From Sporichthyaceae bacterium (lineage in GTDB: Bacteria > Actinomycetota > Actinomycetes > Sporichthyales > Sporichthyaceae), in assembly GCA_036493475.1 (NCBI GenBank), contig DASXPS010000217.1, forward strand, positions 1 to 64,000: a stretch of DNA of 64,000 bases, read 5' to 3'. This document shows positions 19,121 through 28,526 of this stretch, one piece after another (the first letter of the stretch is position 1; each line of letters starts with the position of its first letter). The notes beneath the pieces are model-generated. The model was not told the origin of the DNA and did not search any database. It saw only the letters and a list, made by a program, of their open reading frames with translations. The position numbers and the translations under genes were made by a program.

Positions 19121-19765
19121 TCAGCGGTGCGGGTCCTTGTCGGAGGTGATCAAACCCATGCGCAGCGCGGTCATTAAGGCCTGCGCGCGGTTGCCCGCGC
19201 CGAGCTTCTCGTAGACCTTGGAGATGTGGGTCTTGGTGGTGGACTCGCTGATGAACAGTGTCTTGGCGATGCCGGACACGGCCAGCCCGTCCGCCAGCAG
19301 CTTGAGCACCTCCTTTTCCCGCGGGGACAGCGCGGGACCCGAGGGCGCCATCTTGCGCCGCATCGCGTCCGCGAGGTCCGCGGCGGAGAACGAGGCGGGC
19401 GAGGCCGCGGCGTGCCGCGCGGCGGCCAGCACCTCCTCGGCGGGTGAGTCCTTGTTGACGAAACTGGACGCACCGGCCTCCAGTGCGGCGAACAGTTGGT
19501 CGTCCCCGGCGTACATGGTCAGCACGACGATGCCCATGCTCTCCCCGGCCGCGCGCAGCTTCTTCACCGCGTCCAGGCCGTTGCCGTCCGGCAGTCGCAC
19601 GTCCATGATCACGACCTCGGGCGACATAGCCCTGATCACGGCCAGCGCCTCGGCCACCGAGCCCGCCTCACCGACCACCTCGAAATCGGGGTCGCGCTCG
19701 AAGGCCCGACGCAAACCATGGCGGATCAGCTCGTGGTCGTCGACCAGCAGCACTGTCGTACTCAT
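19121..19765 (-). CDS. NarL/LuxR-type response regulator
   Basis: This 214-aa regulator has a receiver domain (acidic pair D9/D10, phosphoacceptor D55 in VIMDVRLPDG, and the conserved Lys in VNKDSPAEE) and a C-terminal LuxR helix-turn-helix (LSPREKEVLKLLADG, then SESTTKTHISKVYEKL). ATG 19765 gives the standard MSTTVLLVDD start; the frame is open upstream but overlaps the bridging region. It is the last gene of the three-gene signalling unit and the obvious partner of the HisKA_3 kinase just upstream. It converges on pimB with only 13 bp between. Confidence 0.94.
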   Translation of the reverse strand: MSTTVLLVDDHELIRHGLRRAFERDPDFEVVGEAGSVAEALAVIRAMSPEVVIMDVRLPDGNGLDAVKKLRAAGESMGIVVLTMYAGDDQLFAALEAGASSFVNKDSPAEEVLAAARHAAASPASFSAADLADAMRRKMAPSGPALSPREKEVLKLLADGLAVSGIAKTLFISESTTKTHISKVYEKLGAGNRAQALMTALRMGLITSDKDPHR

Positions 19766-19842
19766 GACGGCGGCTCGTTCCTCGCCGGCGTCATGAGGCG
19801 CGGTCGGGCTGTGCTCATTGATTCGCTCGCAAGCTCGCTCAT
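19762..19842 (-). other. Bridging 26-codon mini-ORF between the kinase and regulator genes
   Basis: ATG at 19842 overlaps the kinase TGA (ATGA). The 26-codon frame, peptide MSELASESMSTARPRLMTPA..., ends in a TGA overlapping the regulator ATG (ATGA). This is the same architecture as the qcrC/qcrA gap and begins with the same repeat, though an indel in the repeat puts the two peptides in different frames, so the peptide itself is not conserved. A role in translational coupling is an inference. Confidence 0.45.
19809..19842 (-). repeat. Intercistronic repeat, copy 2 (kinase/regulator)
   Basis: On the minus strand it starts ATGAGCGAGCTTGCGAGCGA and ends AATCAATGAGCACAG, matching copy 1 at 6571-6605. 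Its own ATG and TGA serve as the mini-ORF start and the kinase stop. It has internal near-palindromic character (GAGCTTGCGAGC). Confidence 0.6.
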
Positions 19843-21545
19843 CGCGCCTTCTCCTCGGTCCTTCGGCCACGCTTCGGCCCGGACATTAGCTTGTCGTACT
19901 CCTCGGCCTCCGCGTCGTGTGCGGTCGCGGCGAGTCCTACCCGAACTGCAACGTATGTCCCCCGGGGCTGCCGGGCCCGAATTTCCAGCGTCGCCCGGGA
20001 GCGCGCCGCCCGTTCCCGCATGACCTCCAGCCCGTAACTGTCCTCGCGGCCCTTGCCCAGGCCCTGACCGTCGTCCTCGACCACCAGTTCGGCGTCCGGC
20101 GGATGCACCCGGCAGGTGACCCAGAGGTTGTCCGCGGCGGCGTGCTTGCGGGCGTTGTTGATCGCCTCCTGGGCAATACGCAGCAGCTCCGCCTCGGTTT
20201 CCGCGGGCAGCCGGCGGTTGGACTCGTCCAACGTCATGTGCACGGTGAACCCGGCGGTGGTGCCGATCATCCGCAGGTACTCGGACAGCGCGGCACCCAA
20301 CCCGCCGTGACGGTCCACGTCGGAGCGCAGCTCGAAGATGGACAGCCGCAGCTCGCGCACGATGCGGGTCATCTCCTGGCGCAGTCCGGTGAGGTCCTCG
20401 ACGATGTCCAGCTGTCCGGCGTCCGCGGCCACCGAGGAGATCTCGTCGACCATGTAGCCCAGTGAGGCCAATTCCTGCGCGATTCCGTCGTGGATCTCCC
20501 GGGCCAGGCGCCGGCGTTCCTCGGCGGTGGCCAGCTCGCGGATCTGGTCGAACAGCACGCCGGTGTCCAGACGCAGCGCGATGTCCTCGGCGAGGTCGAC
20601 GATCTGCTCGACCACGGCGGACGGATAGGCGTAGGGCTGCTCGGTCTCGCAGGCCAGCAGGCCGCTGATGCGTTCGCCGATGCGGATCGGCACCACCAGC
20701 GAGCTGCCGCCCGGCGGTGGCTCCAGTGAGCCGGCGTCGCGCAGGAACCGGTGATCCCGCAGCTGGGGCGCTTCGGTGGCCCAGACCTCGGCGAACGGGT
20801 TGGCCCCGCCCAGCTCCATCTCCCACTCCAGCCGGTCCTCGCCGCGGCGGGCCAGCGTGGTCAGCCGGTCCCCGTCGCTGCGCATGATTACCGCCGCGGC
20901 ACTGAACCGGGCGACCCGGGCCAACTCCTCGATCAGCGTGTCCGCGGTGGTCACCGGGTCCAGCGACCCCGGCAGTTGACGGGTCACTGCGTAAAGCTGG
21001 GAGAGCAGGTCGTGGGCCTCGGCGTAGACGTTCGTCGCGGTCTCGGTGGCGTCGTCCTGCAGCCGGCGGGCCCAGGCCGCGACCAGCCCGCCCATCAACG
21101 CGATCACCGTCCACTGGGCGGCGGCCACGCTGTAGTCCTTGACGTGCAGGTCCTGCCGGTTGGGCACGGCCAGACCGATCAGCAGCGCGGTGGCCGCGGC
21201 GCCCGCCGCCATGGTCGCCCCGCCCGCCTGGGCCAACAGGCCGCCCGCGAACACCGGAGCCAGCAGGTAGGGCAGCAGCGGGGACAGCTCGTGCCCGGTG
21301 GAGTTCACCGCGATGGCCCACACCGCGACCTCGCCGGTGCGGCCCAGCAATCCGGCGAGGGTAGTGCGCTCCAGCACCGACACCGCGGCGCCGACCACGC
21401 CCATCGCGCCGATCCAGCTGAAGTCCTGACCCGGCTTGTCGCCGAGCACCGCGAGCACGGCGCAGCCGGCCAGCAGCAGGGCACGCAACGCCACCGCCGG
21501 CAGGCCGGGGTAGCGCGCGAGCAAAGCAGCGATGCGCCCGGGCAC
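19839..21545 (-). CDS. Membrane sensor histidine kinase with GAF domain (HisKA_3 / NarL-partner type)
   Basis: This 568-aa kinase has about five or six N-terminal membrane helices (about 15-160), a short coiled coil, a GAF domain (about 190-325), a HisKA_3 dimerisation domain with phosphoacceptor H352 in REIHDGIAQELASLG, and an HATPase_c domain with N-box EAINNARKHA, G1 DDGQGLG and G2 YGLEVMRERA. The stop is coupled to the regulator through a bridging mini-ORF. The start lies 26 bp after the 1017-aa gene, so all three are probably one transcript. The signal sensed is unknown. Confidence 0.93.
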   Translation of the reverse strand: MPGRIAALLARYPGLPAVALRALLLAGCAVLAVLGDKPGQDFSWIGAMGVVGAAVSVLERTTLAGLLGRTGEVAVWAIAVNSTGHELSPLLPYLLAPVFAGGLLAQAGGATMAAGAAATALLIGLAVPNRQDLHVKDYSVAAAQWTVIALMGGLVAAWARRLQDDATETATNVYAEAHDLLSQLYAVTRQLPGSLDPVTTADTLIEELARVARFSAAAVIMRSDGDRLTTLARRGEDRLEWEMELGGANPFAEVWATEAPQLRDHRFLRDAGSLEPPPGGSSLVVPIRIGERISGLLACETEQPYAYPSAVVEQIVDLAEDIALRLDTGVLFDQIRELATAEERRRLAREIHDGIAQELASLGYMVDEISSVAADAGQLDIVEDLTGLRQEMTRIVRELRLSIFELRSDVDRHGGLGAALSEYLRMIGTTAGFTVHMTLDESNRRLPAETEAELLRIAQEAINNARKHAAADNLWVTCRVHPPDAELVVEDDGQGLGKGREDSYGLEVMRERAARSRATLEIRARQPRGTYVAVRVGLAATAHDAEAEEYDKLMSGPKRGRRTEEKAR

Positions 21546-21571
21546 GCCGTCAGAATTTCACAACGGGCGGC

Positions 21572-24500
21572 TCAGCGGCGCCGGTGCGTCCGTTGGTCGT
21601 GAATCTGGCGCGCCACGTCGCGGGTTTCCAGCGTCTCGGCCAGCTCGGCGACGTAGTCCTCGATGTACTCCCCGAAGACCTCGGCGACGTCCCGCTCGAA
21701 CGGCTTCTCCGCGCGCGCAGCGACCAGGATCGAGTTCGCCGCCAGCAGCGGGATGCCGACCAGGTGCGGCCATTGGGCCAACGGCACCCCGGTCAGCTCT
21801 TCGCGCAGGCCGTCCGGGTCGTCGGTGATCTTCGGCTTCTCACGGCCGAGCACCTCGCGGATGAACCAGTGCTCTTCGGAGAGCCGGTAGCGCAGGTCAC
21901 GCGCGCCGATCCCGATGCCGGACGCGGTGCTCCAGGCGTCCCCGTCCGGGATGATCATCGCGACGGCCTCGCACTCCAGATGCTCCATCGCGACGAAGGC
22001 CAGCTCCTCGCACACCTGCGCGGGCGCGGCCAGCGTGTCGGTCATGGCCATCAGCTGGTGCACGAAACCCAGGCCCGGCGGCTCCAACTCCGGCCCGTAG
22101 TACACCGGCCGGTTGGCCAGCATGCGGGCCTCGGCCTCTTCCTCGGCGTTGCGGACGGCCTCGTCGACGATCCGGTCCGCCTCGGCCCTGATCTTGGTCT
22201 GCCGGATCAGGCCCTCGACCCGTTCGATGGTCTCCACCCGGGAGACCTCGGCCTGCAGCTTGGCCGCGATGCGCTGCCGCTCGGCGTCCTCGCGGGCCCT
22301 GATGGCGGCCTGGTGCGCCTCCATCTCCGCCTGCAGCCGGGCGGCCTTGGCCGCCTCGGCGGCCAGTCGGGAGTCGACCTTGGCCTGGGCGTGCGAGGCG
22401 CGCTCGGCGACCACCCGGGCGCGTTCCTCGGCGCGCGCCGCCTCGGCAGCAACCCGCTCGGCCTGCTTCTGAGCCTCCTCGGCGGCCTTGGCTTCGGCCA
22501 CGGCCCGGGCGCGGGCGGCTTTCTCGTCCGCGCGGGCCTGGGCGTCGGCGAGTCGGGCCGCCTCGGCGCGGGCCCGCTCGATGGCTCGGGAGGCCTCGGC
22601 GGCAGCCTTTTGGTCGGCCTCGGCCATCTGCTGGGCAGCCCTCGCGGCCACCGCCGCCGCGCGTTCCGCGGCCCGGTGGGCCTCGGCGTCGGCGCGAGCG
22701 CGGTGTTTCGCCTCGATCTCGGCGGCCCTTGCCGCCTCCATCGCGGCGCGCGCCTCGGCGTCCGCTCGGGTCTTCTCCGCCTTGGCGGCCTCGGCTGCGG
22801 CCCGTTCGGCGGCCTTGATCTCGGCATCCGCGCGGGCCTGCTCGGCGCGCACCGACCCGGTGGCGGCGCGGGCCGCGGCCTTGGCCTCCGCGGTCTGCTG
22901 GGCCTGCTCCAGCCGGGCGGCCTCCTCGGCCATGCGGGTGCGGGCGTCCGGGATCGGGTGGAAATCCGTGGGCTGGGCGGGCACCGGCGGGTGCTCGGGG
23001 CCGAACTCGGCGCGTGCCCGGGCGAGTCGAGCCGCTTCCTTCTCGGCCGCCTTGGCGGCCTTTGCGGCCGCGCGGGCCCGGCTCCGGTCGTGACGCGGGT
23101 CGGCGCCGACGCCCGGCTCCAGCGGCATCGGGGTCAGCGGACCGGCGTAGGCCTGCGGGGCGGCGTACGGCTGCGGGGCGGGGTACTGCTCCGGCGCGGC
23201 GTAGCTCTCCGGTGCGCGGAACGTGTCGGGCGCCGGCTCGGAAGGCAACGGCGGCGCCGGCGGCAGCGGCGGACCGACCTCGCCCTGGCGCGGCCGTGGC
23301 CGCGCCCATGGCGCCAGTCGGTGCTTGAGACTCTCGGTGTCCGGCGCCGGCGGCAGGTCGAACTCGTCGTGCGGCGCGGTGGGGATCGTCGAGGCCGGCG
23401 GCGGTAGGAAGCGCATCCAGTCCGATTCGCCGGTGGTTTCGCCGGGGGAGGTGGCCGGTGCCGAGGACTCCCACGACGGGGTGGGCGGCGGTGCCGGGGA
23501 CAGCGGCGGGCTGGACGGCAGGTACTTCATCCACTCCGGCTCGTCGGCCGGCGCCGGCTCGGTGGGCGCGGGTTGCGCCGGGGCCGGCGTCGACGGCAGG
23601 TACTTCATCCACTCCGGTTCGTCGGCCGGGGCCGGGGCCGGATCGGTGGGCGCGGGGGCCGGGGCCGGGGTCGACCAGGTGGGGCTGGGCGGGAGGAAGT
23701 CGTCGATCGAGGGCCAGGCGTACTCCGCGGACGGGCTGGTGCTCGGCGCCGGCGCGCTCGGCTCGGCTCTGGGTGCCGGCGTGCTCCAGTCGACGCTCGG
23801 GGTGATCGGGAAGCGCTCGGTGTCCGCCGCGGGCGGGGCCTCGGTGACCGGTTCGGGTGCGGTCAGGTCGATGGCGTCCAGCGCTTCCGGGGTGAACGCG
23901 GTGCGCCAGTCCAGGCTCGCGGACTGGGTGAAGGACTCCTTGTCGAACGACGGCCACTCCACGGCCGAGCCACTCGGCGCTTCCGCCGGGGGCAGGTCCA
24001 GCCCGTCGAGGACCGAGGCGACCTCGGGAGCCGCGGGAACCTCGACGGTCGCGGGGACGTCCAGGGCCGCGGGGATATCCAGGGCGGCGGGGATATCCAG
24101 GGCCGCGGGGACGTCCAGGCCCGCCGGGACATCGTCCCCATCCCCGTCAACGTCTCCGTCGTCCCGGGCGCCGTACGCGTTCTGGTGTTCCTCCTCCTCG
24201 CGGGCGGCGGCCAGGTCCACCGCGGCCATGGTGCGGCCGACGGCGCGCAGCAGACGGTCCCGGGTCAACGGCATCGACAACGTCTTCACGTTGCGGTCGG
24301 CCAGCCGCAGGGCGACCAGCCGCGGGCTGTCCGAAACGGACTCCGCGACGATCAGCACCGGCACCTGCACCGACCGGTTGCGCAGCTCGCTCACTACGTC
24401 TACCGCGCGGTCCGCGTCACCCAGGTCGAGCATCAACAGGTGCGCGGCAGAGGCCCAGTCCACCCAGCCGGGAGTCTCGGCAGGGTCGACCGGGATCACG

Positions 24501-24625
24501 TTGAGGTCATCCGCGGCAAGTGCGGCGGTAATCGCAGCATTGCCCGAGATGACGAGCACGTCGCGCAGCGGGGCCTCCAAACCGCCGAGAGGGTCTGGGT
24601 AGACGATACGGCGGGAACGGATCAT
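21572..24625 (-). CDS. 1017-aa pseudo-receiver / Pro-rich / coiled-coil / GAF-like signalling protein
   Basis: No single known family covers this protein. Residues about 20-138 look like a receiver fold (LLMLDLGDA after strand 3, LIVAESVS, TLSMPLTRDRLLRAV) without the canonical acidic pair and Lys. An acidic linker (142-165) and five hexapeptides of the type LDIPAA (170-200) follow. Residues 205-500 are proline-rich and probably disordered, with repeats of EWMKYLP and a variant DWMRFLP. Residues about 512-835 are an Ala/Glu/Arg-rich helix, probably a long coiled coil with a break at 541-561. Residues about 845-1000 resemble a GAF domain. It has no membrane segment and no output domain. It is first in an operon with a GAF histidine kinase and LuxR-type regulator, so a scaffold or input role is likely. 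Confidence 0.85.
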   Translation of the reverse strand: MIRSRRIVYPDPLGGLEAPLRDVLVISGNAAITAALAADDLNVIPVDPAETPGWVDWASAAHLLMLDLGDADRAVDVVSELRNRSVQVPVLIVAESVSDSPRLVALRLADRNVKTLSMPLTRDRLLRAVGRTMAAVDLAAAREEEEHQNAYGARDDGDVDGDGDDVPAGLDVPAALDIPAALDIPAALDVPATVEVPAAPEVASVLDGLDLPPAEAPSGSAVEWPSFDKESFTQSASLDWRTAFTPEALDAIDLTAPEPVTEAPPAADTERFPITPSVDWSTPAPRAEPSAPAPSTSPSAEYAWPSIDDFLPPSPTWSTPAPAPAPTDPAPAPADEPEWMKYLPSTPAPAQPAPTEPAPADEPEWMKYLPSSPPLSPAPPPTPSWESSAPATSPGETTGESDWMRFLPPPASTIPTAPHDEFDLPPAPDTESLKHRLAPWARPRPRQGEVGPPLPPAPPLPSEPAPDTFRAPESYAAPEQYPAPQPYAAPQAYAGPLTPMPLEPGVGADPRHDRSRARAAAKAAKAAEKEAARLARARAEFGPEHPPVPAQPTDFHPIPDARTRMAEEAARLEQAQQTAEAKAAARAATGSVRAEQARADAEIKAAERAAAEAAKAEKTRADAEARAAMEAARAAEIEAKHRARADAEAHRAAERAAAVAARAAQQMAEADQKAAAEASRAIERARAEAARLADAQARADEKAARARAVAEAKAAEEAQKQAERVAAEAARAEERARVVAERASHAQAKVDSRLAAEAAKAARLQAEMEAHQAAIRAREDAERQRIAAKLQAEVSRVETIERVEGLIRQTKIRAEADRIVDEAVRNAEEEAEARMLANRPVYYGPELEPPGLGFVHQLMAMTDTLAAPAQVCEELAFVAMEHLECEAVAMIIPDGDAWSTASGIGIGARDLRYRLSEEHWFIREVLGREKPKITDDPDGLREELTGVPLAQWPHLVGIPLLAANSILVAARAEKPFERDVAEVFGEYIEDYVAELAETLETRDVARQIHDQRTHRRR
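23402..23626 (-). repeat. Tandem WMKYLP-motif repeat inside the 1017-aa protein gene
   Basis: A 26-residue (78-bp) unit is repeated: ADEPEWMKYLPS occurs at residues 334-345 and again at 360-371, and a diverged third copy ESDWMRFLPPP is at 400-410. An aromatic-hydrophobic motif repeated in a disordered linker often means several docking sites for one partner. Confidence 0.8.
24026..24118 (-). repeat. 18-bp tandem repeat encoding LDxPAA hexapeptides
   Basis: Five consecutive units encode LDVPAA, LDIPAA, LDIPAA, LDVPAT, VEVPAA in residues 170-199. The nucleotide repeats are nearly identical (GGGATATCCAGGGC-type on the plus strand), suggesting recent expansion by slippage; copy number may vary between strains. 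Confidence 0.8.
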
Positions 24626-24719: not shown

Positions 24720-25511
24720 ATGCGCATTCACGTGGTCAGTGACGTGCACGGGTCGACGCAGGCTCTGGCGGCGGCAGGGATGGGTGCCGATGTCCTGATA
24801 TGTCTGGGCGATCTGGTGCTGTTCGTCGACTACGAGGACTCTGCCGGCGGAATCTTCGGGGAGATCTTCGGGGTCGAGAAGACCGCCGAATGGATCTCGT
24901 TGCGCACCGCCGGACGGTTCGACGAGGCCCGGTCCTTTTCGCGCGGTTTGTGGGCAAGCATCGACGGCGACCCGATGGATGTGATCACCCAGCAGGTGCG
25001 CACGCAGTACGCCGGCCTGTTCGCGGCCATGCCCGACCCGACCTACCTGACCTACGGCAACGTCGATCTGCCCGCGCTCTGGCCGGAATTCCTGGGCCCG
25101 GCGCACACCGTGTTGGACGGTCAGATCACCACGATCGGGGGACGGGTGTTCGGCTTCGTGGGGGGCGGGCTACCCACTCCTTACCGCACCCCGTTCGAGA
25201 TTCCCGAGGACGTCTACGCGGCGAAGGTAACCGCGGTGTTCGACGCCGCCGCGGCGGCCGGTCGCCGAGTGGACGTGCTGTGCACGCACATCCCGCCGGC
25301 TGTGCCCGATCTCACTTACGACGTGGTGGCCCGTCGCTTTGAACGGGGCAGCGAGGCCATCCTGTCGGCCATCCGGGAACACCAGCCGCCCCTCGCCCTG
25401 TTCGGGCACGTGCACCAGCCGTTGGCGGAGCGCACCCGAATCGGGCGTACCGAGTGCGTCAACGTGGGCCACTTCCGGGGCACCGCCACCCCGTACGTGC
25501 TGACGTGGTGA
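24720..25511 (+). CDS. Calcineurin-like metallophosphoesterase
   Basis: This 263-aa protein has the metal-binding motifs of the family in order: DVHGS near the N-terminus, GDLV, GNVD (in place of GNH), THIP and GHVHQP near the C-terminus. The two-metal site is therefore intact except that the GNH-type histidine is Asp. Proteins of this size usually hydrolyse phosphodiesters or phosphomonoesters of nucleotides or small molecules; the substrate cannot be read from sequence. It stands alone and is divergent from the signalling operon. Confidence 0.88.
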   Translation: MRIHVVSDVHGSTQALAAAGMGADVLICLGDLVLFVDYEDSAGGIFGEIFGVEKTAEWISLRTAGRFDEARSFSRGLWASIDGDPMDVITQQVRTQYAGLFAAMPDPTYLTYGNVDLPALWPEFLGPAHTVLDGQITTIGGRVFGFVGGGLPTPYRTPFEIPEDVYAAKVTAVFDAAAAAGRRVDVLCTHIPPAVPDLTYDVVARRFERGSEAILSAIREHQPPLALFGHVHQPLAERTRIGRTECVNVGHFRGTATPYVLTW

Positions 25512-25524
25512 GAGACGCGAAACA

Positions 25525-25552
25525 TTGGGCCCCTCGGCTCCCGCGATAGCCT
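25525..25552 (+). promoter_or_regulatory. Promoter of the SRPBCC-ArsA operon
   Basis: TTGGGC (25525-25530), a 16-bp spacer and TAGCCT (25547-25552) form a reasonable primary-sigma promoter. The start codon at 25598 has GGAGG at 25586-25590, so this transcript has a normal leader. Confidence 0.5.
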
Positions 25553-25597
25553 GCGGCGGGACGCAGGGGGCTCCTACCGGCAAGCGGAGGATGGGCA

Positions 25598-26035
25598 ATG
25601 GCGGATCAGACCACGGCGAGCATCACCATCGCCGCGGCGCCGCAGGCCGTGCTTGACGTGATCGCCGACTTCGAGGCCTACCCGGAATGGGCCGGCGCGG
25701 TGAAGAAGGCGGAGATCCTCGGCCGGCTGCCCGACGGGCGGGCCGAGCTGGTGCACTACCAACTCGACGCAGGCCCGATCAAGGACGAGTACACCCTGGG
25801 CTACGACTGGTCGCAGGTGCCCGACCTGCTGACCTGGAAGCTCGTCGAGGGCCAGATGCTCAAGATGCTGGTCGGCTCCTACGCGCTGGTGGAAACCGGC
25901 GACGGGCACACCGAGGTGACCTATCACCTGGCGCTGGACGTCAAGATCCCGCTGCTGGGCATGATCAAGCGCAAGGCCGAGAAGGTCATCATCGATCAGG
26001 CCCTCAAGGAGCTCAAGAAGCGCGTGGAGGGCTAG
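25598..26035 (+). CDS. SRPBCC (START-like) lipid/ligand-binding protein
   Basis: This 145-aa protein matches the polyketide cyclase/dehydrase-type SRPBCC fold, with an N-terminal ASITIAAAPQAVLDVIADFEAYPEW block, central beta strands and a C-terminal helix rich in Lys (QALKELKKRVEG). It resembles mycobacterial Rv2185c. The fold binds hydrophobic ligands in a cavity. ATG 25598 is chosen over the out-of-frame ATG at 25591 and has GGAGG 7 nt upstream. It is followed directly by the ArsA-like ATPase. Confidence 0.88.
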   Translation: MADQTTASITIAAAPQAVLDVIADFEAYPEWAGAVKKAEILGRLPDGRAELVHYQLDAGPIKDEYTLGYDWSQVPDLLTWKLVEGQMLKMLVGSYALVETGDGHTEVTYHLALDVKIPLLGMIKRKAEKVIIDQALKELKKRVEG

Positions 26036-26049
26036 CCCTGACTGCTCGA

Positions 26050-27228
26050 GTGCTGTTGTTCACCGGCAAGGGCGGCGTTGGCAAGACGACCGCCGCGGCC
26101 GGCACCGCGACCGCGGCTGCCGCCGCTGGTTACAAGACGCTGGTGCTCTCCACCGACGCCGCGCATTCGTTGGCCGACGCCTTCGACCACCCCGCGGGGG
26201 GCGAGCCCACCGAGGTCGGTCCCCACCTCTACGTGCAACAGGTCGACACGCAGCGCACGTTCGAGCGGACCTGGGTGGAGATCCGCAGCTACCTGCTCAG
26301 CGTGCTGGACTCGGTCGGGGTCGATCCGATCGAGGCCGAGGAGCTCACCGTGCTGCCCGGCGCCGAGGAGGTGCTGGCCCTGCTCGAGGTGCGCGATCAG
26401 GTGCGCTCCGGGCGCTGGGACGTCGTGGTCGTGGACTGTGCGCCGACCGCCGAGACGCTGCGGCTATTGGCCCTGCCCGAGGCGCTGAACTGGTACATGG
26501 ACCGGGTCTTCCCGGTCGAGCGGCGTCTGGTGCGCGCGCTGCGGCCGGTGCTGGGCAAGGTGGCCGGCGTGCCGATGCCCCGGGACAAGGTGTTCGACGC
26601 GGTGGAACGGTTGCACGCGGAGCTGGCCGCGGTGCGCAGCGTGCTCACCGACCCCGGCACCTCGGTGCGCCTGGTGCTCACCCCGGAGGCGGTGGTGGTG
26701 GCCGAGGCGCGGCGCACGCTGACCTCGCTGGCGCTCTACGGGTACCGGACCGATGCGGTGATCGCCAATCGGGTGTTCCCGCAGGCCGGGGCGGATGAGT
26801 GGCGGCGCGGCTGGGTGGCCGCGCAGGCAGCCGTGCTGGCCGAGGTCGAGGCCTCCTTCGCCCCGTTGCCGGTGCTGCGTTCGCCGTACCGTACGTGTGA
26901 GCCGGTGGGACCGGGCGAACTCGCAGCGTTCGCCGAGGAGCTCTACTCTGCGCTGCCCGCGGACCGCTCGGACCCGTGTGCGGTGCTGGCCGGGGCGGAA
27001 CCCATGACGGTCCGTCACACCGAGGACCGGTATGTGCTCTCCCTCGCCCTGCCGCTGGCCGACAAGCGCGAGATGGACCTGCGACGTAAGGGCGATGAGC
27101 TGGTGCTGACGGTGGCCGGGCACCGTCGGCAGTTGGCCTTGCCCGGCTTGCTGGCCCGCCGTGCGATCACCGGTGCGGATCTGGTCGGCGACCGGTTGGA
27201 CATCGGCTTTGCCCGGGATCTGCCATGA
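26050..27228 (+). CDS. ArsA/GET3-like ATPase with C-terminal HSP20-like domain
   Basis: This protein of about 392 aa has a deviant Walker A, TGKGGVGKTT, immediately after the start, then STDAAHSLADAF (switch I), VVDCAPTAETLRLL (switch II) and a C-terminal ArsA_HSP20-type domain (RYVLSLALPLADKREMDL to the end). It has no arsenite cysteine motif, so arsenite pumping is unlikely; a chaperone or targeting role is more plausible. The start is uncertain: GTG 26050 gives MLLFTGKGG, but CTG 26038 (MTARVLLFTG) sits 7 nt after GGAGG and would keep the whole first strand. It overlaps the next gene by ATGA. Confidence 0.88.
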   Translation: MLLFTGKGGVGKTTAAAGTATAAAAAGYKTLVLSTDAAHSLADAFDHPAGGEPTEVGPHLYVQQVDTQRTFERTWVEIRSYLLSVLDSVGVDPIEAEELTVLPGAEEVLALLEVRDQVRSGRWDVVVVDCAPTAETLRLLALPEALNWYMDRVFPVERRLVRALRPVLGKVAGVPMPRDKVFDAVERLHAELAAVRSVLTDPGTSVRLVLTPEAVVVAEARRTLTSLALYGYRTDAVIANRVFPQAGADEWRRGWVAAQAAVLAEVEASFAPLPVLRSPYRTCEPVGPGELAAFAEELYSALPADRSDPCAVLAGAEPMTVRHTEDRYVLSLALPLADKREMDLRRKGDELVLTVAGHRRQLALPGLLARRAITGADLVGDRLDIGFARDLP

Positions 27229-27548
27229 CGGCGTCTGCCGATCCGTTGGGCACGGCCGGCCACGAGGCGGCGCGCCTGTTGGACGCGTTGGGCCAGTGGT
27301 TGGGCGCACGCACCGCGGAATCCTCCGGGTGGTCCGAGCACGTCGCCACCGGGTCCGCGGAGTGCCGGTTGTGTCCGCTGTGCCGGTTGATCGCGTTGGC
27401 CCGGGACACCAGCCCGGAACTGGCGGAGCATCTGGACGATGCGCTGCGTTCGGTGGGCTCGGCGCTACGGCTGGTGAGCGATCAGCTCGGTGCGAACTCG
27501 GGCAACCAGCGCCGCAGCGGTGACTTCGAAACCATCGTCATCAACTGA
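27225..27548 (+). CDS. Conserved small protein with CxxCxxC motif
   Basis: This 107-aa protein has a helical N-terminus, the motif ECRLCPLCRLI (three close cysteines) and a helical C-terminus, suggesting one metal site or a redox motif. The ATG overlaps the ArsA-like stop (ATGA), so it is co-translated with the ATPase and probably acts with it. No named family was recognised with certainty. The last 20 residues are polar. Confidence 0.75.
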   Translation: MTASADPLGTAGHEAARLLDALGQWLGARTAESSGWSEHVATGSAECRLCPLCRLIALARDTSPELAEHLDDALRSVGSALRLVSDQLGANSGNQRRSGDFETIVIN

Positions 27549-27572
27549 CGTACGATCAGATTGCAGCCACAT

Positions 27573-28526
27573 ATGAATGATCTCGCAGTAGGTGTGGACG
27601 TGGGTGGCACCAAGATCGCGGCCGGCTTGGTGGACGGCCAGGGGAAAGTGCTCAACTGCGTCCGGCGGGAATCGCCGGAGGACAGCGAAGAGTTGTTCGA
27701 GGCGATCGTCGCGGCGGTCCGGGATCTCGGCCGGGAGGCCGTTCGGGTGCCCATCGGGGTGGGTGCCGCGGGGTTCGTGGATCTCGACCGATCCACCGTG
27801 CTGTTCGCGCCGAATCTGCCGTGGCGGACCGAACCCCTGGGCAGCCAATTGGGCGATGAATTGAACGCCACCGTGGTGGTGGAGAACGACGCGAACGCCG
27901 CGGCCTGGGCCGAGGCCCGGTTCGGCGCCGGTGTCGGGCACGACCACGTGGTGTGCGTGACTGTCGGCACCGGCGTGGGCGGCGGGATGGTGCAGGACGG
28001 GCAACTGATCCGTGGGGGTCACGGGGTTGCCGGGGAGTTCGGGCACCTGCCGGTGGTGCCGGACGGCATGCCGTGCGGTTGCGGCCAGTACGGCTGTTGG
28101 GAGCAATACGCCGGCGGGGAGGCATTGTTACGCCGGGCCCGCGACCTGGTCCGCGCCAAGCGGCCCGAGGCCGCCCTACTGTCCGCGTCCTGCCACGGAA
28201 AGCCCGAACAGCTGCGGGGTCCGGTGATCACCAAGCTGGCGCGAACCGGCGATTCGGCTGCGATCGAGTTGCTCGCCGAGACAGGCCACTGGCTCGGGGT
28301 CGGCCTGGCCGGATTGGCCGCGGTGCTGGACCCGACCTGCTTCGTGATCGGCGGCGGCGTCGCCGACGCCGGTGACCTGTTGGTGCAACCGGCCCGGCGG
28401 ACCTTCGACCGTCGGCTGCCCGCGGGTGGTACGCGAAAGTCGCCGGTGCTGGTTCCCGCGCTGCTGGGCAACGATGCGGGCATGATTGGGGCCGCCGATC
28501 TGGCCAGAGAGGGGGGCGGTCCGTGA
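27573..28526 (+). CDS. ROK family sugar kinase (glucokinase-like)
   Basis: This 317-aa enzyme has the ATP-phosphate motif GVDVGGTKIAAGLVDG, the catalytic region ENDANAAAWAEARFG, GEFGH (zinc-ligand His) and the ROK zinc motif CGCGQYGCWEQYAGG. It probably phosphorylates glucose or a related sugar at C6 with ATP. ATG 27573 is used; TTG 27561 would add four residues. TACGAT (27551-27556) may be the -10. No Shine-Dalgarno was seen. The next gene overlaps it by GTGA. Confidence 0.9.
   Translation: MNDLAVGVDVGGTKIAAGLVDGQGKVLNCVRRESPEDSEELFEAIVAAVRDLGREAVRVPIGVGAAGFVDLDRSTVLFAPNLPWRTEPLGSQLGDELNATVVVENDANAAAWAEARFGAGVGHDHVVCVTVGTGVGGGMVQDGQLIRGGHGVAGEFGHLPVVPDGMPCGCGQYGCWEQYAGGEALLRRARDLVRAKRPEAALLSASCHGKPEQLRGPVITKLARTGDSAAIELLAETGHWLGVGLAGLAAVLDPTCFVIGGGVADAGDLLVQPARRTFDRRLPAGGTRKSPVLVPALLGNDAGMIGAADLAREGGGP

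Follow-up and report, generated by a model that had tools for sequence, protein, structure and literature searches.

Judged by profile matches and gene order, the 1017-residue protein encoded in the window (the whole 64,000-nucleotide stretch of Sporichthyaceae DNA that was analysed) is a stretched member of an undescribed family of Tad/Flp-pilus operon proteins, in which a pseudo-receiver at one end is combined with a GAF domain at the other (pREC-GAF). No family in Pfam or NCBIfam covers this protein, and its compact relatives likewise have no Pfam family that spans them as a whole. The arrangement, the gene, and the operon are not described in the open-access literature that was searched, and two-component genes go unmentioned in a 2011 survey of type IV pili in Gram-positive bacteria. 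We class the protein, in kind a known one, as accessory to a two-component system and tied to a pilus operon. Both the membership of the family in Tad/Flp operons and its compact core had been missed in the initial annotation. There is good support for the assignments of family, locus, and domains.

The locus and the domains of the 1017-residue protein

The three genes of the locus (Table 1) are separated by 26 nt (between the gene of the 1017-residue protein and that of the kinase) and by about 73 nt (between those of the kinase and the regulator). The regulator most likely starts at the ATG at 19765 and not at the GTG at 19870, since its orthologues begin at the equivalent Met. The open reading frame of the 1017-residue protein is uninterrupted and coding, with GC3 of 0.88–0.94 in all four of its segments. 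In pairs of relatives dN/dS is 0.03–0.41 for the GAF part, 0.20–0.27 for the receiver-like part, and 0.24–0.46 for the helical part, and all three segments are under purifying selection. The order of the three genes is kept in all five Sporichthyaceae genomes. Complete proteins, 1017, 1213, and 990 residues long, are available from three of them (that of the window and those of L013 and L015), with the other two truncated by contig ends. One of the five is a Sporichthya MAG (locus L021, NZ_JACDFE010000286.1, the same contig as G004); a first scan of genome contigs with the window GAF as the query gave no match, and an alignment of family members used as the query led to this one named relative.

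Table 1. Features of the locus in the window, with residue numbers of the 1017-residue protein except for the GAF domain of the kinase
Feature	Residues	Position	Strand	Evidence or occurrence
pREC-linker-helix-GAF protein	1017 aa	21572..24625	minus	ORF, orthologues in 5/5 family genomes, purifying selection, GC3
Pseudo-receiver	about 22-135	24221..24562	minus	PDB receiver matches 7.9e-7; compact-family profile 2.6e-9
Five LDxPAA-type hexapeptides	170-199	24029..24118	minus	window-specific; absent from L013 and L015
Linker motif A, VEWPSFDKESF...DWRTAFT	222-245	23891..23962	minus	in all three complete Sporichthyaceae proteins
WMKYLP repeats	339-408	23402..23611	minus	window-specific
Linker motif B, DLPPxPxxxxxKHRLAPWARPRP	423-445	23291..23359	minus	in all three complete Sporichthyaceae proteins
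Predicted helical stalk	606-837 (232 residues)	22115..22810	minus	no gaps across family, period 3.63
GAF-like domain	about 851-1012	21590..22075	minus	profile matches
GAF-HisKA_3-HATPase_c histidine kinase, membrane-anchored	568 aa	19839..21545	minus	Pfam; orthologues; hydrophobic N-terminal segments
GAF domain of the kinase	201-327 (kinase)	20565..20945	minus	Pfam
NarL/LuxR-type response regulator, Response_reg + GerE		19121..19765	minus	Pfam; ORF 19121-19870

A profile of the N-terminal domain built from 11 members matches receivers in the PDB over the whole domain, the best credible match being PhoP (7.9e-7). Two designed TIM barrels that ranked above it were 30-residue artefacts. The acidic pair of strand β1 and the Lys of strand β5 are replaced in all 11 members, and the position of the phosphoacceptor is occupied by Asp in the window protein and by Asp, Glu, or Ala across the family. 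Weak matches to FleQ, OKR_DC_1_N, and TopJ were set aside; the N-domain of FleQ is itself receiver-like, and TopJ matches the low-complexity helix. The GAF end of the window protein, taken alone, matches nothing in Pfam. Among its family, six of the 12 members, compact homologues, match GAF_2 (best 2.3e-8), and the family profile of the C-terminal domain matches the GAF of the partner kinases (95%, E 1.9e-8), with E of 0.04 or worse for four control profiles. No set of Cys or His residues for haem or Fe-S is found among the near-invariant positions in the alignment of the GAF domains. AlphaFold models of residues 19–140, made from a single sequence (pLDDT 48), and of the GAF end, made from two (pLDDT 40), were left unused, and since the pLDDT reached only these values, both folds rest on profile evidence.

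Much of what the initial annotation had proposed for this locus is thus confirmed. The tightly linked trio on the minus strand is borne out by the open reading frames, the Pfam domains, and the orthologues in all five family genomes, and the receiver-like domain lacking the acidic pair and Lys by the profile match and the 11-member alignment. The GAF-like domain is corroborated through the GAF_2 matches of the compact homologues and the match to the GAF of the kinases, and its presence in both the 1017-residue protein and the kinase is likewise upheld, the two domains being detectably related (E 1.9e-8). A membrane segment had been described as missing from the 1017-residue protein, and its highest 19-residue Kyte-Doolittle mean is indeed only 1.46; the proposal of an adaptor-type protein with neither an output domain nor a membrane anchor is supported.

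In the part between the two end domains the earlier description stands less completely. Five LDxPAA hexapeptides had been listed, of which three are exact, whereas the other two read LDVPAT and VEVPAA; similarly, two of the WMKYLP repeats are exact, whereas the third copy is WMRFLP. Both kinds of repeats are absent from the two other complete proteins of the family. The length of the Pro-rich linker varies widely in Sporichthyaceae, with motifs A and B retained across genera in the shared forms VxWPSFDKxSF...DWRTAF and DLPPxP...KHRLAPWARPRP. As for the claimed coiled coil of about 300 residues, a helical region is real, but it has no heptad periodicity. The alignment of the stalk contains no gaps in the three complete proteins, with 135–164 identities per pair, and this ungapped similarity reaches back from the GAF domain for ~240 residues, beyond which it is at background level. 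Hydrophobic and charged residues of the stalk recur with a period of 3.63 in all three proteins, while the power at 3.5 is near background, and a canonical heptad coiled coil was rejected on the latter ground. The 3.63 peak was reached by 1, 31, and 3 of 500 shuffles for the three proteins, so that the periodic signal is weak in L013 alone. These properties fit a straight amphipathic or hendecad-like helix of locked length. Since the core of the family is compact, the region previously described as a coiled coil, the Pro-rich linker, and the repeats are lineage-specific, and the long middle region as a whole is, on this comparison, a Sporichthyaceae elaboration.

Compact relatives in Tad/Flp-pilus operons

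A search of the class, made with the GAF end first and then with a profile built from the distant matches, identified compact relatives in other actinobacterial families. These proteins, 288–476 residues long, carry both end domains, with a linker whose length varies from one to another. The window protein matches their profile with 4.5e-26 in the GAF half and 2.6e-9 in the receiver half. Both end domains occur together in Sporichthyaceae and in nine further genomes of the class. Wherever the tadC side is sequenced, the gene lies directly after tadC, the operon running cpaE/tadZ, cpaF/tadA, tadB, tadC, and the gene itself (L016–L020, L022, L023, L025, L026, and L027); it overlaps tadC by 4 nt in L017 and is 3 to 8 nt away from it in L018, L019, and L065. 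In the tad loci of the class the kinase and the regulator are present, and the Flp pilin mostly comes next, with an ATPase of the DnaB_C type usually placed between the genes on the opposite strand. Possible Streptomyces counterparts are SCO2120/SCO2121.

Several other features of these loci may be recorded here. In both classes in which the pREC-GAF gene was found, it is neighboured by a gene on the opposite strand that encodes a DnaB_C/KaiC-like ATPase (L016:4462-5649, L017:5046-6044, L064:4463-5515, and L065:2347-3399). TadB has, according to Pfam, a von Willebrand factor A domain fused to T2SSF (L017:7920-9914 and the equivalents in other tad loci), a make-up absent from the descriptions of Tad in the literature examined. 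Similar-looking polytopic membrane proteins are found near the loci (L016:248-1603, L065:3403-4758, and L066:731-2605), the L016 copy having no match in Pfam.

The kinase is present at the locus in all 14 genomes of the class that have GAF-half matches (the best five candidates per genome were scored). This count includes G062, where the gene is split over two contigs, and excludes G044, with a partial match at a contig end; it was drawn from GAF-half matches only because the N-terminal half of profile A1 also matches ordinary receivers. The kinase is commoner than the pREC-GAF gene, occurring in 55 of 148 genomes at E of 1e-40 or better. In many genomes it directly follows tadC with no pREC-GAF gene, elsewhere neither that gene nor tad is present, and the pair of kinase and regulator is often found where the pREC-GAF gene is not. 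Across the class this pair is anchored between genes of ROK, ArsA-like, SRPBCC, (FadD), and phosphoesterase proteins and a glycosyltransferase (GT) gene (window 24720-28526 and L031–L059), and this anchoring persists even where both tad and the pREC-GAF gene are missing.

In a second class the pREC-GAF gene is found in three genomes, all of one family. The copy in G419 (L065:4908-8387) follows tadC and has a DnaB-like ATPase nearby and no kinase adjacent to it, and the best kinase matches in these three genomes are partial and about 30% identical. This copy encodes 1159 residues, with a Pro/Ala/Gly-rich linker of ~850 residues and no long helix, and lengthening of the linker has therefore occurred more than once. 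By the standard set in the initial annotation, homologues without the pair of kinase and regulator would refute its reading. That refutation is partial: co-occurrence holds for 14 of 14 genomes in the first class but not in the second, where the gene is linked to tadC without the pair. Since the link to tadC exists there without the pair, coupling to the kinase is not universal; the oldest partner of the gene is therefore the pilus operon, with the kinase a frequent one.

Absence of the pilus genes and the proposed role of the signalling unit

The window locus includes no Tad gene, no flp, and no DnaB-like neighbour. The CpaF protein of L016 used as a query finds copies that are 72–88% identical in tad-bearing genomes, whereas its matches in the window genome are limited to distant ATPases of the PilB/PilT-like kind, located on one contig. 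Beside those ATPases lies the single protein of the window genome that belongs to the T2SSF family (TadB/TadC/PilC), and no CpaF, TadB, or TadC of the Tad type was found there, only type IV pilus genes. In other Sporichthyaceae, additional Tad-like ATPases of more distant kinship are encoded elsewhere in the genome. The evidence for the absence of Tad is strong but not absolute, coming from a draft assembly of 4.27 Mb in 217 contigs, rated 100% complete. As the Tad ATPase, TadB, and TadC are missing, the signalling unit seems to have outlived the pilus genes. L017, L018, and L024 also have, close to the locus, the glycosyltransferase that neighbours the window regulator, and thus the locus in the window resembles theirs minus its pilus genes. 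The occurrence in the second class suggests that the pilus was lost in the window lineage rather than gained elsewhere; a tree of the kinase and the regulator leaves gain versus loss unsettled, because gene-positive and tad-positive loci are scattered in it and deep support is weak. Separately, the type IV pilus cluster of the window genome (L028, contig 77), with PilB/PilT-like ATPases and one PilC, may be noted as a possible new client of the unit.

The Tad-operon ancestry of the protein makes it probable that it was once an adaptor linking the pilus machine to the kinase. On balance we favour the view that it is a non-catalytic adaptor kept after the loss of Tad, with the pseudo-receiver docking on a machine and the GAF end modulating the kinase. 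We infer the docking, the modulation of the kinase, the target genes, and the present service to another structure along the following lines. The 1017-residue protein would be cytoplasmic, and its pseudo-receiver, not phosphorylatable in the ordinary way, would use a surface to dock on a component of the machine, originally the assembly platform or the motor of Tad. The GAF end would bind the neighbouring GAF-HisKA_3 kinase and alter its autokinase activity, and the kinase would then phosphorylate the LuxR-type regulator, whose original target was plausibly the flp pilin gene, located downstream of the regulator in other genomes. In Sporichthyaceae, the Tad genes, flp, and the DnaB-like neighbour would have been lost from the locus and the three signalling genes retained, and the end domains would have been separated by an insertion consisting of a disordered Pro-rich linker with two motifs and a length-locked helix of ~240 residues (about 36 nm if fully helical). 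We can suggest, more tentatively, that actinobacterial Tad pili have a three-component relay, with a dead receiver that senses the state of the machine and a GAF domain that signals to the kinase, and that this relay was not only retained on loss of the pilus but rebuilt with the fixed-length ~36-nm stalk to read another structure.

The same protein could instead be a factor for the positioning or assembly of pili, similar to TadZ or FrzS, that plays no direct role in kinase control and shares its locus with the kinase only via the pilus operon; in Sporichthyaceae it would have been reassigned, for example to the type IV pilus, which the window genome retains. Its strictest and oldest link, that to tadC, holds in the second class without an adjacent kinase, and pseudo-receivers with long helices are known to serve polar pilus proteins (PMC1974792, PMC11580455; TadZ/CpaE, PMC13170226). 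Nevertheless, the three-gene order kept in Sporichthyaceae despite the absence of Tad genes from the locus is easier to explain by partnership with the kinase, and the GAF end is similar to the GAF of the kinases themselves, and we regard a positioning or assembly factor as rather unlikely. Less probable still is a soluble sensor that binds a small molecule of the cytosol with its GAF domain and signals to the kinase, while the pseudo-receiver and the stalk only oligomerise it. GAF domains often bind small ligands, and the stand-alone GAF protein CvnF8 has been proposed as the sensory input of a kinase (PMC13343842), but the GAF alignment lacks the near-invariant Cys or His residues that haem or Fe-S would call for, and both the position after tadC in the operon and the locked length of the stalk would be left unexplained.

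That the gene is a relic decaying after the loss of the pilus, its low-complexity middle a product of drift, we consider very improbable: the widely varying length of the Pro-rich linker and the repeats found in the window protein only would agree with decay, but not the purifying selection on both end domains and the helix, the 232-residue stalk free of insertions and deletions, or the two linker motifs retained across genera. The adaptor model itself has to contend with a kinase that carries its own GAF domain and with a pair of kinase and regulator that is common without the pREC-GAF gene. The Sporichthyaceae, with the pilus genes gone and the presumed relay kept, offer a natural experiment for testing input and output separately.

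Comparison with known systems

How pili enable bacteria to sense a surface is not settled, and signalling at actinobacterial Tad pili seems to be little known. The family described here provides a concrete candidate, a cytoplasmic protein encoded between the pilus platform and a pair of kinase and regulator. FrzS of Myxococcus xanthus likewise starts with a pseudo-receiver that has no phosphorylation site and continues into a long helical region. Its pseudo-receiver acts through the output face and binds a partner, its coiled coil targets the pole, and control of the type IV pilus is exerted through protein contacts and polar targeting (PMC1974792, PMC11580455). However, FrzS ends in the coiled coil, with no GAF domain described, whereas in the window protein a helix free of heptads precedes a GAF domain. 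TadZ/CpaE is, in turn, a Tad-operon protein with an atypical receiver domain that localises parts of the pilus (PMC13170226). It differs in including a ParA/MinD ATPase, while no ATPase family is found by Pfam in the 1017-residue protein, and it is encoded by a separate gene within the same operons as the compact pREC-GAF proteins; a profile comparison of the N-domain with the TadZ receiver gave no specific match.

The pair of window kinase and regulator has all the domains usual for GAF-HisKA_3 kinases and NarL/LuxR-type regulators, but a third, non-enzymatic partner gene is added to it in the window and in 13 other genomes of the class. Such a partner recalls the CvnF accessory proteins, which belong to the G-protein systems of actinobacteria and are stand-alone, non-catalytic GAF proteins encoded with a histidine kinase; one of them, CvnF8, binds its kinase and stimulates it (PMC13343842). 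The window protein differs from them by the added pseudo-receiver and stalk, and its kinase by having its own GAF domain and an adjoining LuxR-type regulator. Conservon genes (roadblock, CvnC-type, and GTPase) were not recognised among the window neighbours, judged by reading of the open reading frames, which were read as phosphoesterase, SRPBCC, ArsA-like, ROK, and GT. FrzS, TadZ, and CvnF8, likened here by function and not as relatives, may thus serve as precedents that make each step of the proposed mechanism plausible.
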